Shown piece by piece: positions 2,578 through 54,001 of a stretch of 64,000 nucleotides of DNA (position 1 is its first letter; the number at the start of each line of letters is the position of its first letter). Location of the stretch: positions 1,862,345 to 1,926,344 of the forward strand of contig NZ_DF968182.1 of assembly GCF_001192835.1 (NCBI RefSeq), written 5' to 3'. Made by a program: the position numbers and the translations under genes. This DNA comes from Lentimicrobium saccharophilum. GTDB lineage: Bacteria; Bacteroidota; Bacteroidia; Bacteroidales; Lentimicrobiaceae. A model generated the notes under the pieces. It saw nothing but the letters and a program-made list of their open reading frames with translations. It was not told where the DNA came from and did no database searches.

Positions 2578-4808
2578 AAAAACACATTATTACGCTGGCC
2601 CTGGCAATTGCCGGTCTGGCAGTTATGGCTCAGGAAAAAATGTACATCCATAAAGCGGATCATTTCACCCTGGGAGCCCTTGTCACTTCAACTGACAGTA
2701 TTTATTTCAGCAACGACCAGAGCACCATCTTATTCAGCATTGGCGACACCCTGGACTCATACGCCGTATCAGAGATTGACAGTATCACTTTTGGCGCGAA
2801 TTCAACCATTATCAGCATCTTCTATGAAGGGAACTACGTCAGGGTTATAAACCCGCTTGCTTATGAAGGGGTTTCAGTTTCAACTGACGGAGCAAATGTA
2901 ACCGTAACCTCAACCAGCCAAATACAGGATATTGGTTACCGTCTTTCAGGGAGCACCCATGGAGGCTCGTTTAAAATATACAGCCAGCAGCCTTTCGAGC
3001 TGATGCTTAACGGGGTGCAGATAACCAATACCAATGGGCCGGCCATAAACATTCAATCCGGGAATACAGTTACCGTCGACATCATGAACGGAACAACAAA
3101 TGCGCTTACCGACGGCGGCTCTTACAGCAATCCTGCCAAGGCACCTGACGGTAAATCAGAGGATCAGAAGGGCGCTTTCTTCAGTGAAACCACACTGATA
3201 TTCACCGGCACCGGTAATCTGACCATCAACGGCCTGGGTTCTGCAAAGCATGGCCTGTGCAGCGACAGCAACATTGAGATCAATGGCTGCAGCATTAACA
3301 TTGCAAGTGCAGCAAAAGACGGGATACATGCGAAGACCGGATTCGAAATGATAAACGGTTCACTTAATATAACTGCGACGGGTGATGCCATTGACGGAGA
3401 TGCTGGAAATGTGACCATCACAGGCGGAAATATTACGACCCTGAATGATGCAGATGATGTAAAAGGCATAACCTGCGACGGAACCATGTCCATTTCGGGC
3501 GGGGTGCTCATGCTTACGGTCAACGGAGATCAGTCAAAAGCCATGAAGAGCGAATCGGACATTACCATCAGCGGAGGCAGCATTACTATAATTACAACAG
3601 GTGATGCAGTGCTTGAAGCTTCAGGATCCGGATTTGACCCTTCCTATTGCACAGCTATCAAATGCGATGCAAATATTAATATCAGCGGGGGGAGCATAGA
3701 CATCATAAGCACGGGAATCGCCGGTAAAGGTATTTCATCGGATGCTGACATCACTATTGCAAACGGAACCATAACCATAACCTGTTCGGGGAACGGAGCA
3801 AGATACACGAATACCGAAGGTGCTTATGACGCTTATGTTTCCACCTGCATCACATCCGACGGAAATACCCTGATTAACGGAGGTAACATTACCACCAGCA
3901 GTTCCGGTTCAGGCGGGAAAAGTATTTCAGTGGACGGAACTCTGAACATAGAAAACAGTAACTCACCCCCTGTAATAAACCTGACTACAACAGGAAACAG
4001 GATTTACATCAGTGGCTCCGGTGAAAATGCGGAATATGCAGAGGCCAAAACCGTCAAGAGCGATGGCGACATCGTAATTGAAAGCGGAAACATCACGCTT
4101 AATTCAGCGGATGACGGGTTGAAATCAGAAACATCCATTACCATATCCACCTCCATTATCAACATTACCAACTCAGTTGAAGGCATAGAGGCTCCATTTA
4201 TCAACATAAACAGCGGGGAAATAACTATTAAGTCATCTGATGACTGTATCAACACTACATTTGGCCTGGGCGGAGAACAAAACGACGGGAGCATCATGAC
4301 CTTTAACGGAGGCTTTGTGGCGGTAAATACAACCGGAGGCGACGGGCTGGATGCCAATGGCAATATTGTCATTAACGGAGGAACCATCGTTGTACACGGG
4401 CCGCCCAATGCCCCTGAAGTTGGCATGGATTACAACGGCTCCTGTAATATGAACGGCGGATTCCTGGCCGTTTCAGGGCCTAACTCAAATATGCTTCAGG
4501 CGCCCAGCAACAGTTCCACACAGAACTGCCTGAAGGCGGTTACTTACAGCGGGTTATCAGCATCTACCTTGTTCCATATCCAGGATGCTTCCGGTGTTAA
4601 TATCTTAACATTCCAGCCTCTCCGCACTTACTACTCTGTCATCTTTTCTTCTTCTGAACTGCTGACAGGCTCCACTTACTCAATCTATACCGGGGGAAGT
4701 TGCAACGGGACCATTAATAACGGGCTTTACACCGGCGGAACGTACTCGGGAGGTACATTCAGGAAATCCTTTACGATTAATAACAGGATTACAAGTGTAA
4801 ACTTTTGA
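2574..4808 (+). CDS. Cthe_2159-like carbohydrate-binding beta-helix protein
   Basis: A 744-residue secreted protein. After a signal peptide (about residues 1-19) a short module carries the pair DSIYF and EIDSITF. From about residue 120 to the end there are many beta-helix turns rich in ITISGG, NINSGEITI and DGIHA-type motifs, alternating with short Asp/Gly loops. This pattern matches my memory of the Cthe_2159 family, whose founding member binds acidic plant polysaccharide. Binding of a glycan or of calcium is therefore an inference. It ends in NNRITSVNF and has no T9SS tail of its own, whereas the overlapping upstream gene has one. A strong terminator follows at 4833-4869. DUF-level identification is good; the ligand is unknown. 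Confidence 0.78.
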   Translation: MKKHIITLALAIAGLAVMAQEKMYIHKADHFTLGALVTSTDSIYFSNDQSTILFSIGDTLDSYAVSEIDSITFGANSTIISIFYEGNYVRVINPLAYEGVSVSTDGANVTVTSTSQIQDIGYRLSGSTHGGSFKIYSQQPFELMLNGVQITNTNGPAINIQSGNTVTVDIMNGTTNALTDGGSYSNPAKAPDGKSEDQKGAFFSETTLIFTGTGNLTINGLGSAKHGLCSDSNIEINGCSINIASAAKDGIHAKTGFEMINGSLNITATGDAIDGDAGNVTITGGNITTLNDADDVKGITCDGTMSISGGVLMLTVNGDQSKAMKSESDITISGGSITIITTGDAVLEASGSGFDPSYCTAIKCDANINISGGSIDIISTGIAGKGISSDADITIANGTITITCSGNGARYTNTEGAYDAYVSTCITSDGNTLINGGNITTSSSGSGGKSISVDGTLNIENSNSPPVINLTTTGNRIYISGSGENAEYAEAKTVKSDGDIVIESGNITLNSADDGLKSETSITISTSIINITNSVEGIEAPFININSGEITIKSSDDCINTTFGLGGEQNDGSIMTFNGGFVAVNTTGGDGLDANGNIVINGGTIVVHGPPNAPEVGMDYNGSCNMNGGFLAVSGPNSNMLQAPSNSSTQNCLKAVTYSGLSASTLFHIQDASGVNILTFQPLRTYYSVIFSSSELLTGSTYSIYTGGSCNGTINNGLYTGGTYSGGTFRKSFTINNRITSVNF

Positions 4809-51370: not shown

Positions 51371-52195
51371 TCAGGCTGTCGATGATAACCGGTAGTCACG
51401 CTCCCGGTTCAAAGGATCCTGGTTCAGCATTCTGCTGAGCAATCCGTAAATTTCAGGTTTGTGTTGCTTCAGCAGTTCCGGCACCTCAAAAAAATATTCC
51501 ACACATACCGAAAAGAATTCTTCGTCATTGACATAGGCATACTCCCTGAGCAGGCCGGGGACACCTCTTGCCGCCAGCTCCTTTTCTTCCGGAAACCTAC
51601 GGTCCATCTCATCGCTCCTCAGCTGCACCATCAGCCCGGTTTCGCGGGTAGTCTCCAGTTCAAGGCGCAAAGCATGGGCCATCTCATGCAGGCCAAGGTT
51701 GTAATTGTCGTTATGCACAAGGTAGCCTTCCTGAAAATCAGCCCAGGACAATGTAATGAAACCTGCTCCAGAGGTTAATCCCTTCAGATCGCTGTTAAAG
51801 AACCTTGAATAAAAGGATTCAGGATAAAGAATATACCGCCTGAACCTTTCAAAAAAGAACAACTTCATCCCGAAAGTAAGCTGAATCTGCGCAAATATCA
51901 CACAGATTTTCATCTCTTCAGTGACTTCGAGCCCTGCATGACCCGTAAATGAAACCTTTCCCATCACCTTGCACAGGCGAGCCATAAAGCGGTTTCTCGC
52001 CGGAGGTGAAAGGTGACGATAGTAGAGAAACCTGTCATTCAGCAGGGTGTCAATCGATTGCCGGTTATTGCGGAACTTCCGTTTTACGCTGTAACGGTCA
52101 AAATAATCCCCTGTGATCAGGAATAAAATATATCCATGATATTGTATCAACATCAGCAGGAGGAAGTATAGGAATACAAAGTACAATGAGTTCAT
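51371..52195 (-). CDS. MtfA-like M90 zinc peptidase
   Basis: A 274-residue protein with one N-terminal membrane helix (about residues 3-27). The zinc motif is HEMAH (170-174) with a downstream NDEEFFSVCVEYFFE (from 223) whose glutamate is the third ligand. This matches peptidase family M90, the MtfA group, whose E. coli member binds the glucose repressor Mlc and has aminopeptidase activity. Unlike E. coli MtfA this form has a membrane anchor. It follows the radical SAM gene on the same strand after a 369-base gap, so they may not share a transcript. Substrate unknown. Confidence 0.83.
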   Translation of the reverse strand: MNSLYFVFLYFLLLMLIQYHGYILFLITGDYFDRYSVKRKFRNNRQSIDTLLNDRFLYYRHLSPPARNRFMARLCKVMGKVSFTGHAGLEVTEEMKICVIFAQIQLTFGMKLFFFERFRRYILYPESFYSRFFNSDLKGLTSGAGFITLSWADFQEGYLVHNDNYNLGLHEMAHALRLELETTRETGLMVQLRSDEMDRRFPEEKELAARGVPGLLREYAYVNDEEFFSVCVEYFFEVPELLKQHKPEIYGLLSRMLNQDPLNRERDYRLSSTA

Positions 52196-52564: not shown

Positions 52565-53635
52565 TCAATGCTGATTTTTTGTAGCATGCTCAATTTTCTC
52601 CTTATGGCAAACCAGCACATCATTCATATCTCCGTGCCAGTTATGAAATCCATTTCCCCAACAATCTTTATAATCCTTGCAAGATGCACATTTCCCTTTT
52701 TTCGTCCATTCCCGGTTTCTGAAGGGCAGAAACTTATTCAGCCATACTTCATAAAGATTATCCCGGTAAATATTCCCCTGTGTGAAGGACCGGTTAATAT
52801 TCGGGCAGGCTGAAATGGAACCGTCAATCAGGACAGACCCGATATTGATCCCCGCCCTGCAGAAAAAATAGCTGTCCCTGACCAATGGTTCATATTTACC
52901 CACATATCCTTCACAACTGAATTTTACATCAATCTGTTTTCCTTTACGCTGTAAGGCAATAAAATCCATCAGTTCAGCAAACTGATTATCCGTCAGTTGC
53001 AGTTCCTGATCGCCGGCGGCCCGCCCTATCGGAATAATGGTAAACAATCTCCAGGACTTTACATTTGCTGAAACAAGCAAATCCCTGATTTGGGCTAACT
53101 CACTTATGTTCTTCTGATTCACACAGGTTACAACGTCGAAGCTGAGTCTTCCGGAAGAGGCTGCCAGCTCAATGGCATGAATGACTTTTGTAAAACTCTT
53201 ATCATTGTTCCGCAGCCAGTTATGAGATGCTTCAAGACCGTCAAGACTGATTGTCAGCGCGCCAAGACCTGCATTCAATAAAGAGATATGCCTTTGCTCA
53301 TCGTAAAGGTGGCCGTTGGTGACCAGTGACCACCGTAATCCTCTTTTACGCAGCGCACGGCCGCACAACTCAAGGTCTTTCCTCAGAAGGGGTTCGCCTC
53401 CGGTAAAAACCACGGTAAAATTTTCAGGCCTCTCCTTTATTGTATCAACCGCTGCCAGAAAATCATCCACAGGCATGTCGGGAAAACTATAATCTTGGGA
53501 ACAATCGCTGCCGCAGTGCCTGCAGTTTAAATTGCATCGTGTGGTACACTCCCAGAACAAATAATTCAATTCATGCAACTGTACTTCCGATTCCCTGAAC
53601 TTTCTGAAAGCAACCCTTTTCAGCGATGAGATCAT
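52565..53635 (-). CDS. Radical SAM/SPASM enzyme of the rSAM/lipoprotein system
   Basis: A 356-residue cytoplasmic radical SAM enzyme. The cluster motif is Cys34-x3-Cys38-x2-Cys41 (CNLNCRHC), with GGEP at 79-82 for SAM binding. The SPASM C-terminal region holds cysteines 241, 259, 277, 316, 319, 325 and 343 (FFCRAG, SACPNI, KCASCKDYKDC, LVCHKE), enough for auxiliary clusters, as in enzymes that modify peptides. Its ATG immediately follows the stop of the small lipoprotein, with no bases between. This arrangement and the lipoprotein's CYGTP motif match my memory of the Bacteroidota 'rSAM/lipoprotein system' (NCBIfam TIGR04133 with TIGR04134). The likely role is modifying the lipoprotein, but the chemistry is unknown. 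Confidence 0.88.
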   Translation of the reverse strand: MISSLKRVAFRKFRESEVQLHELNYLFWECTTRCNLNCRHCGSDCSQDYSFPDMPVDDFLAAVDTIKERPENFTVVFTGGEPLLRKDLELCGRALRKRGLRWSLVTNGHLYDEQRHISLLNAGLGALTISLDGLEASHNWLRNNDKSFTKVIHAIELAASSGRLSFDVVTCVNQKNISELAQIRDLLVSANVKSWRLFTIIPIGRAAGDQELQLTDNQFAELMDFIALQRKGKQIDVKFSCEGYVGKYEPLVRDSYFFCRAGINIGSVLIDGSISACPNINRSFTQGNIYRDNLYEVWLNKFLPFRNREWTKKGKCASCKDYKDCWGNGFHNWHGDMNDVLVCHKEKIEHATKNQH

Positions 53636-54001
53636 CTATTTTTCTTCAAGAATGATATCCAGATAAACATTTTCGTTAACATCAGCCAGCACAGTATCTT
53701 TACCTGCGTATAGTCCGTTCAGCGTTGAGTCCGTGTCCTGAAATTTCAGTGCCAGATGCTGAATCATCTCCGTGTAGAATGAAAACTTACCATCTTCATC
53801 TGTTATTACATATTGCAAATTATCCGCGACTGAAACTTTAATCCCTTTAATGGGCAATCCTGAAGTTTTTGCTTTTACCTGACCTTCGACAAACAAATCA
53901 TTTCCAAAATCCTGGGGTGTGCCATAACATGCCTGAAAGACAAACAGAGCAGAGGTAAGGCTTAATCCTCCGAGAATTTTTCTTATAAAGCGGCTTTTCA
54001 T
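53636..54001 (-). CDS. Radical SAM-associated putative lipoprotein
   Basis: A 121-residue exported lipoprotein. The signal ends in a lipobox with FQAC (Cys25), directly followed by the conserved CYGTP stretch (25-29). Residues 40-120 look like a carboxypeptidase-regulatory-like (transthyretin/Ig) fold: VEGQVKAKTSGLPIKGIKV and VITDEDGKFSFYTEM. It is the first gene of a two-gene unit with the radical SAM/SPASM enzyme, and its stop is adjacent to that gene's ATG. In this family the residues just after the lipobox are the best conserved, which suggests that they are the modification site. That is an inference; no product of such a system has been described to my knowledge. Confidence 0.86.
   Translation of the reverse strand: MKSRFIRKILGGLSLTSALFVFQACYGTPQDFGNDLFVEGQVKAKTSGLPIKGIKVSVADNLQYVITDEDGKFSFYTEMIQHLALKFQDTDSTLNGLYAGKDTVLADVNENVYLDIILEEK

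Follow-up and report, generated by a model that had tools for sequence, protein, structure and literature searches.

The window, a stretch of 64,000 nucleotides from the genome of Lentimicrobium saccharophilum, carries two adjacent genes on its minus strand. The upstream gene (53636..54001) encodes a lipoprotein of 121 amino acids. It comprises a signal peptide (residues 1–24, codons at 53930..54001), the lipid-bearing Cys25, a tag formed by Y26-G27-T28-P29 and a transthyretin-like domain at about residues 36–118. The codons of Cys25 and the tag occupy 53915..53929 (minus strand). The downstream gene (52565..53635) encodes a radical SAM/SPASM enzyme of 356 amino acids. At the junction (53633..53638) the stop codon TAG of the lipoprotein gene (53638–53636) is followed by the ATG of the enzyme gene, which starts at 53635. 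The direct abutment described in the sequence-only reading is therefore exact, with zero gap. Among 85 same-strand F[QE]ACYG genes located upstream of distinct enzymes, including that of the window, 38 abut exactly and 21 overlap by four bases, which indicates gene coupling beyond chance. Each gene is present in the genome as a single copy, besides a weak partial match of the lipoprotein and weak partial matches of the enzyme. The closest named relative is a Lentimicrobium MAG, whose enzyme is 98% identical. About 370 bases downstream of the pair, a gene for an M90/MtfA-like peptidase is located on the same strand (51371–52195); the ten neighbour families listed as most often shared by the pair do not include this peptidase.

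The radical SAM domain of the enzyme is found by Pfam, and the complete protein matches TIGR04133 (rSAM_w_lipo) with 476.3 bits (cut-off 425) over profile positions 9–349 of 350. The cluster-binding CxxxCxxC motif expected from the sequence is formed by C34, C38 and C41. Likewise, the six or more SPASM cysteines are present as C259, C277, C316, C319, C325 and C343, in addition to the invariant C241. The canonical SPASM pattern is CX2CX5CX3C, and the SPASM domain of PlpX-type enzymes has seven cluster cysteines. The enzyme lacks the fourth cysteine of the canonical pattern, i.e. the seventh SPASM cysteine, at position 329. In the alignment this position is occupied by other residues in all 23 TIGR04133 rows and by cysteine in all nine rows of PlpX-type and GDL enzymes. 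C45, C171, C241 and H331 are invariant and peculiar to the TIGR04133 enzymes. The enzyme alignment A1 contains the window and 56 of the 78 eligible rows. No hydrophobic export signal is present at the N-terminus.

The AF2 model of the enzyme has a mean pLDDT of 92.8. Its nearest solved folds are SPASM enzymes, among them ChlB, SuiB, SkfB, anSME and a sactipeptide-type maturase. ChlB, SuiB, anSMEcpe and the thioether-forming maturase CteB (5why/5wgg) share the overall fold (Z 25–26.5 over 302–317 residues), but their sequence identity is 16–20% and their substrates and reactions are not alike. The fold matches of the model are thus a sign of SPASM architecture, not of chemistry. A sequence search of the PDB with the enzyme yielded distant radical SAM enzymes only.

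The lipoprotein scores 31.8 bits against TIGR04134 (lipo_with_rSAM), which is under the cut-off of 39.8. The originally proposed match of the pair to TIGR04133 and TIGR04134 consequently holds for the enzyme and falls short of the cut-off for the lipoprotein. The gene order is that of the TIGR04133/TIGR04134 pair. TIGR04134 is matched at E ≤ 0.001 by 39 of 48 scanned lipoproteins of the FQACYG class, a sample made up of that of the window and 47 of the 62 known from named loci. NCBIfam labels this family ‘radical SAM-associated putative lipoprotein’, and plasmids of Treponema saccharophilum and Parabacteroides distasonis carry members annotated with the names of both families. The domain behind the tag had been taken for an Ig-like domain. 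Pfam suggests CarboxypepD_reg-type domains, below threshold, and in the AF2 model residues 1–35 are unstructured and followed by a seven-strand domain. Teneurin is the top fold match of this domain, and carboxypeptidase and SusC N-terminal-extension domains are among the others. Thus, the domain is of the transthyretin/CarboxypepD_reg type rather than Ig-like.

A sample of 393 genomes of the order contains 96 with a TIGR04133 enzyme at E ≤ 1e-70, 87 of these above the cut-off; among 395 genomes drawn from the class, six have one at 1e-80. Carriers include species of Parabacteroides, Phocaeicola and Bacteroides. Among 60 near relatives, the own genome counted, the enzyme is present in 20, and its distribution is patchy even inside the genus. 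It also occurs in MAGs of Treponema and Spirochaetaceae and on a Treponema saccharophilum plasmid, which suggests lateral spread.

From 157 loci, 137 distinct full-length enzymes were kept, and 129 of these have at least 600 upstream bases. An adjacent lipoprotein was called at 127 of the 129 loci, a count made without choosing on YG, and in 126 of those YG follows the cysteine. The conserved pairing that had been anticipated is thereby borne out. The exceptions are L128, where an EYGTP lipoprotein is located further upstream, L081, where the lipoprotein copy is described as broken, and L025, where no lipoprotein was found. Long flanks are available for 48 loci; 47 of these have, within 1.6 kb upstream, a lipoprotein whose YG is at most 60 residues from the cysteine, and the corresponding numbers in three control stretches are 3, 2 and 6. 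For lipoproteins with YGxP the comparison gives 44 against 0, 0 and 1. Two enzymes may share a neighbourhood: at L052 an EYGVP lipoprotein, a first enzyme, a CYGTP lipoprotein and a second enzyme lie in a row, each enzyme with a lipoprotein class of its own, and two TIGR04133 enzymes are also close together at L069, G696:C2 and G758:C81.

The lipoprotein is the most frequent neighbour family (48 of 51 loci), followed by a family at eight loci and others at five and fewer. There is no conserved third gene at these 51 loci, and a third biosynthetic gene was dismissed, since none is conspicuous. The ten neighbour families that recur most often include no prominent protease or exporter family. This observation bears on the idea of a classical RiPP pathway, in which the lipoprotein would give rise to a small peptide that is released, its C-terminal domain being a passenger. 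The tiny substrates at L019, L022, L024 and L029, in which 23 to 70 residues follow the cysteine, would suit such a precursor. However, a protease or exporter does not stand out beside the pair and the named class A lipoproteins retain both a folded domain and the lipobox, so that a released peptide is extremely unlikely.

The lipoproteins fall into two classes. In class A, to which the window belongs, YG is located directly behind the lipobox cysteine in the context FQA-C-YG-TP. In class B (44 filtered rows) the cysteine is followed by a spacer and then by X-Y-G-x-P-x-A-x-[F/Y], with X mostly Glu. The tyrosine is mostly found 2 to 13 residues past the cysteine, but in some lipoproteins the distance is 24 to 50 residues or the tag is close to the C-terminus. 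Tandem tags are present at L123, L127 and L133, and the tag is also found on the lipoproteins of L019, L022, L024 and L029, which are too short for the transthyretin-like domain. In 148 distinct lipoprotein-like rows, which were selected by their YG and contain chance frames (e.g. L105 and, on the minus strand, L107, L018 and L142) as well as a few mis-called lipid cysteines (L006, L019, L138), position Y+3 is Pro in 131 and X is C in 92, E in 27, A in 8, M in 7, K in 5 and another residue in 9. Class A alone has Pro at Y+3 in 80 of 89 rows. The residue after YG can be T, S, V, M, C, A, P, G and others. Several ruminant-gut relatives lack the proline (CYGTD, CYGTN, CYGCM, CYGVY) and keep YG. 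Since Pro is lost in some relatives while YG stays, and since the position of the tag shifts and the tag is duplicated, the constant element is X-Y-G, usually followed by x-Pro, and the tag is movable.

This result corrects the proposal of a conserved CYGTP segment just after the lipobox. The cysteine of CYGTP is the lipobox Cys25 itself and not a later residue, and cysteine at this position is confined to one subclass. CYGTP as a conserved unit was therefore abandoned, the family-wide core being YG, usually YGxP. A modification tied to the lipobox cysteine as such was also rejected, because the class B tag sits away from the cysteine. Upstream of the enzymes at L026, L134 and L137 another lipoprotein scaffold with VYGSPE-type sites is present, with more than one site in L026 and L137.

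Lipoprotein export signals of Bacteroidota lie close to the anchor. A tag near the anchor occupies their place and could thus serve unmodified in lipoprotein sorting or surface display, the enzyme being merely co-expressed and acting on another target. Several observations argue against this explanation. The tag is also located dozens of residues away from the anchor, in tandem or near the C-terminus. An exact FQACYG DNA pattern occurs in 34 of the 393 genomes, 26 of which have the enzyme. The eight genomes without an enzyme match comprise seven chance frames and one real lipoprotein (L160), which lies beside a truncated enzyme. Furthermore, the class A label requires two changes on the enzyme tree, compared to an average of 34.3 for shuffled labels. 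Substrate class tracks the phylogeny of the enzyme, i.e. the pairing is cognate. A sorting tag independent of the enzyme is thus very unlikely.

The signal peptide of class A is unusually constrained. In the FQACYG set (81 rows), which was chosen by F[QE]ACYG and for which positions −3 to −1 were hence omitted, the mean identity is 77% for positions −14 to −4 of the signal peptide and 56% for the mature part, and the signal peptide is higher in 368 of 389 pairs. When positions −20 to −4 are taken and the pairs are chosen more narrowly, the values are 71% and 59% (252 of 286 pairs). Two control lipoproteins from the same window and their relatives, compared over positions −14 to −1, show the reverse with 21% vs 60% (1 of 202 pairs) and 25% vs 75% (0 of 104 pairs). 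For these controls 21 and 15 rows were obtained from 30 loci each, L236, L245, L249 and L252 being excluded. The information content of the signal peptide is 1.76 bits per column in class B and 2.84 in class A, where the rows are more alike, which alone raises the value. Because its signal peptide is more conserved than the mature domain, contrary to both controls, the class A signal peptide probably serves as the recognition leader of the enzyme. The simplest reading of the constraint is that the enzyme would read the stretch ahead of the tag.

An XYG target is known from the spliceases. TIGR04103, nif11-class peptide radical SAM maturase 3, is presumably the NCBI equivalent of IPR026482, and TIGR04103-like enzymes served as stand-ins for PlpX in the comparisons. 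In the accessible text of PMC11002830, IPR026482 is given as the family of the PlpX/PlpY splicease. PlpX, which was characterised together with the RRE protein PlpY, excises tyramine from Xaa-Tyr-Gly according to the parts seen of PMC11002830 and PMC10533398. Natural sites have M or L as X, and engineering to G is possible; several sites per precursor as well as sites within foreign proteins are reported (PMC10533398, PMC10373908, both as far as accessible). The tags described in the available portion of PMC10533398 include PIRPGYGLPI, which contains YGxP, and others with YGVV, so Pro is not required for splicing by PlpX. Of the 16 FtsZ tag constructs given in the same text, PlpXY accepted two and rejected both of those with LYGLP. 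Hence YGxP alone is no proof of splicing, and a short motif is not always sufficient.

A model built from 135 TIGR04133-type enzymes was compared with 15 other SPASM enzymes. The eight PlpX-type enzymes, retrieved through TIGR04103 or through their similarity to the enzyme of the window, score highest (168–193 bits), followed by the GDL-peptide enzyme (148 bits) and a NirJ2-like enzyme (146 bits); P. polymyxa 1, TIGR04053, MftC, NirJ and PqqE reach 85–122 bits. In a tree of 43 rows, in which the label ‘XYG’ also covers L183 with its cut gene and the PlpX-type enzymes L170, L172 and L174, beside which no XYG peptide was seen, TIGR04133 (23 rows) and the PlpX-type/GDL enzymes (9 rows) are split from 11 other SPASM enzymes with a support of 98/93. 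For four PlpX-type enzymes TIGR03913 and TIGR04103 are the top two NCBIfam models, and TIGR04133 ranks third in three cases and fourth in one. The enzyme of the window, in turn, scores 109.7 bits against TIGR04103 (cut-off 725) and is not a member. TIGR04103 ranks fifth among its NCBIfam models, behind NirJ2 (137.8 bits), AhbD and TIGR04053.

XYG peptides or proteins are located beside the PlpX-type or GDL enzymes of L169, L171, L173, L177 and L179. At L171 the motif is LYGTP next to a PlpX-type enzyme, and a homologue of this protein at L170 has no site. At L173, from the same order as the window, a TIGR03913/TIGR04103-like enzyme (1468–2919) is followed by a protein of 214 amino acids (2955–3599) with six KYGYP repeats. 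This protein has no match in Pfam or NCBIfam and is likely a multi-site XYG substrate, judging by its repeats. On a plasmid of Agathobacter rectalis, a radical SAM gene is closely preceded by a small ORF that ends with MYGTGVRM (L177:2713–2919) and is absent from the PLSDB gene table.

The maturases of GDL-motif (DUF1843) peptides, TIGR03913, share the tree group with TIGR04133. DUF1843-type peptides beside TIGR03913-type enzymes (L169:828–1251, L179:2153–2866) have 56–58 amino acids and, unlike the lipoprotein of the window, no lipobox. Three of five carry XYG near the N-terminus (LYG and PYG at L169, PYG at L179); the other two, both among the three Aureibacter peptides of L179, have YA in its place. 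This peptide family may be spliced as well.

The TIGR04133 unit resembles PlpX in having a SPASM radical SAM enzyme and an XYG target, and PlpX-type enzymes are nearest to it on the tree. It differs in that no conserved third gene suggests a PlpY/RRE partner, the seventh SPASM cysteine is missing, a signal peptide replaces the Nif11-type leader and the substrate is a lipid-anchored protein. The genome has a single PqqD-type match, located in another cluster. There (L194, C1:385500–393500) the PqqD-type RRE adjoins genes that, by their sequences, are ATP-grasp-like and decarboxylase-like. With TIGR04103 missed by far, the cysteine at position 329 absent and no RRE partner seen beside the pair, the TIGR04133 enzyme would, on present evidence, work like a splicease and yet not be a member of that family.

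Another radical reaction at the tyrosine or its neighbours has to be weighed against splicing, i.e. a cyclophane cross-link, an epimerisation or a C–C cleavage without rejoining. The nearest solved folds (ChlB, SuiB, the sactipeptide-type maturase, anSME and SkfB) represent several chemistries, and the SPASM ligation is unlike that of the PlpX types, so that the chemistry could differ as well. On the other hand, a three-residue cyclophane links an aromatic residue to a third one, which has to be fixed and to bear a side chain. The wide variation after YG leaves no such residue, and triceptide chemistry was discarded because the third position includes Gly and Pro. To our knowledge, epimerases need no fixed Tyr-Gly. 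In sactipeptide and ranthipeptide maturation the thioether donors are cysteines of the core. A cysteine adjoins YG in class A and in some class B rows and is missing there in many class B tags (X = E, A, M or K). The tyrosine modified by MftC is located at the C-terminus of the peptide. A mycofactocin-like reaction was rejected, since the tyrosine of the tag is internal and the enzyme reaches 99.3 bits against TIGR03962 (cut-off 265). The kinship with PlpX-type enzymes and the common XYG point to splicing, and a different radical reaction is considered rather unlikely.

The reading that probably applies is that the two genes form a lipoprotein-splicing system, in which the enzyme would splice the XYG tag of the preprolipoprotein before export. 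Its chemistry is proposed by analogy with PlpX; coupling and tag are read from the sequences. Of the original interpretation, the families and their pairing are retained. The CYGTP motif is replaced by X-Y-G(-x-P), which moves and duplicates and is the target motif of spliceases. Translation of both genes would be coupled and the enzyme would meet the unfolded preprolipoprotein. In the cytoplasm it would bind the nascent chain via the YG tag together with the signal peptide. A reaction that precedes export is plausible, given the constrained sequence of the signal peptide and the lack of a hydrophobic export signal at the N-terminus of the enzyme. The 5'-deoxyadenosyl radical would then act on Tyr26, and its tyramine part would be lost (C8H9NO, 135.07 Da), leaving a ketoamide at X. 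With Cys25 as X, the codons at 53915..53929 would encode the excision site, and Cys25 would be rejoined to Gly27 through the keto link. Subsequently, the spliced product would be exported, lipidated on Cys25 and cleaved. The β-homologated cysteine would have to pass Lgt and signal peptidase II. The mature protein would thus carry a backbone-edited, ketone-bearing anchor residue ahead of the transthyretin-like domain.

For a large group of Bacteroidales this would mean that the lipobox cysteine itself is the spliced residue. Tyr+2 would be mostly removed and Cys+1 fused to Gly+3 by an α-keto link before export, with the signal peptide as RiPP leader, and the backbone-edited, electrophilic anchor would then be lipidated on a folded protein that is ordinary in other respects. 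The odds for this more specific proposal appear evenly balanced. Spliced products are reported to inhibit proteases (PMC10373908, in the accessible part). On this basis one may guess that the ketoamide is a membrane-anchored electrophile, e.g. a protease inhibitor or a covalent attachment point.

The gene pair is already named in NCBIfam, and spliceases as such are known. Literature searches returned no paper on the TIGR04133/TIGR04134 pair or on a lipoprotein splicease among the matches listed, which did not cover the survey of Scott et al. 2022; the family names rSAM_w_lipo and lipo_with_rSAM were not found in the literature searched. In the accessible part of PMC10352776 no mention of a lipoprotein, of TIGR0413 or of splicing was found. 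The splicease survey of Scott et al. 2022 (Chem) comprises 939 predicted systems, as cited in the available text of PMC10533398. Its title, as given there, speaks of ‘peptides and proteins’, so the link between TIGR04133 and spliceases may already be in print in that work.

If the proposed reaction is correct, radical backbone splicing extends beyond peptide natural products that are secreted. In about a quarter of the sampled genomes of the order (96/393) it would be a step in lipoprotein maturation, and backbone editing would be routine there rather than a natural-product step. The signal peptide would double as a leader for enzyme recognition. The system could also offer an RRE-independent splicease, a simpler tool for installing ketones as handles on proteins. 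TIGR04133 and TIGR04134, two NCBI families for which no product is described, would thereby gain a specific reaction that is cheap to test (−135.07 Da).
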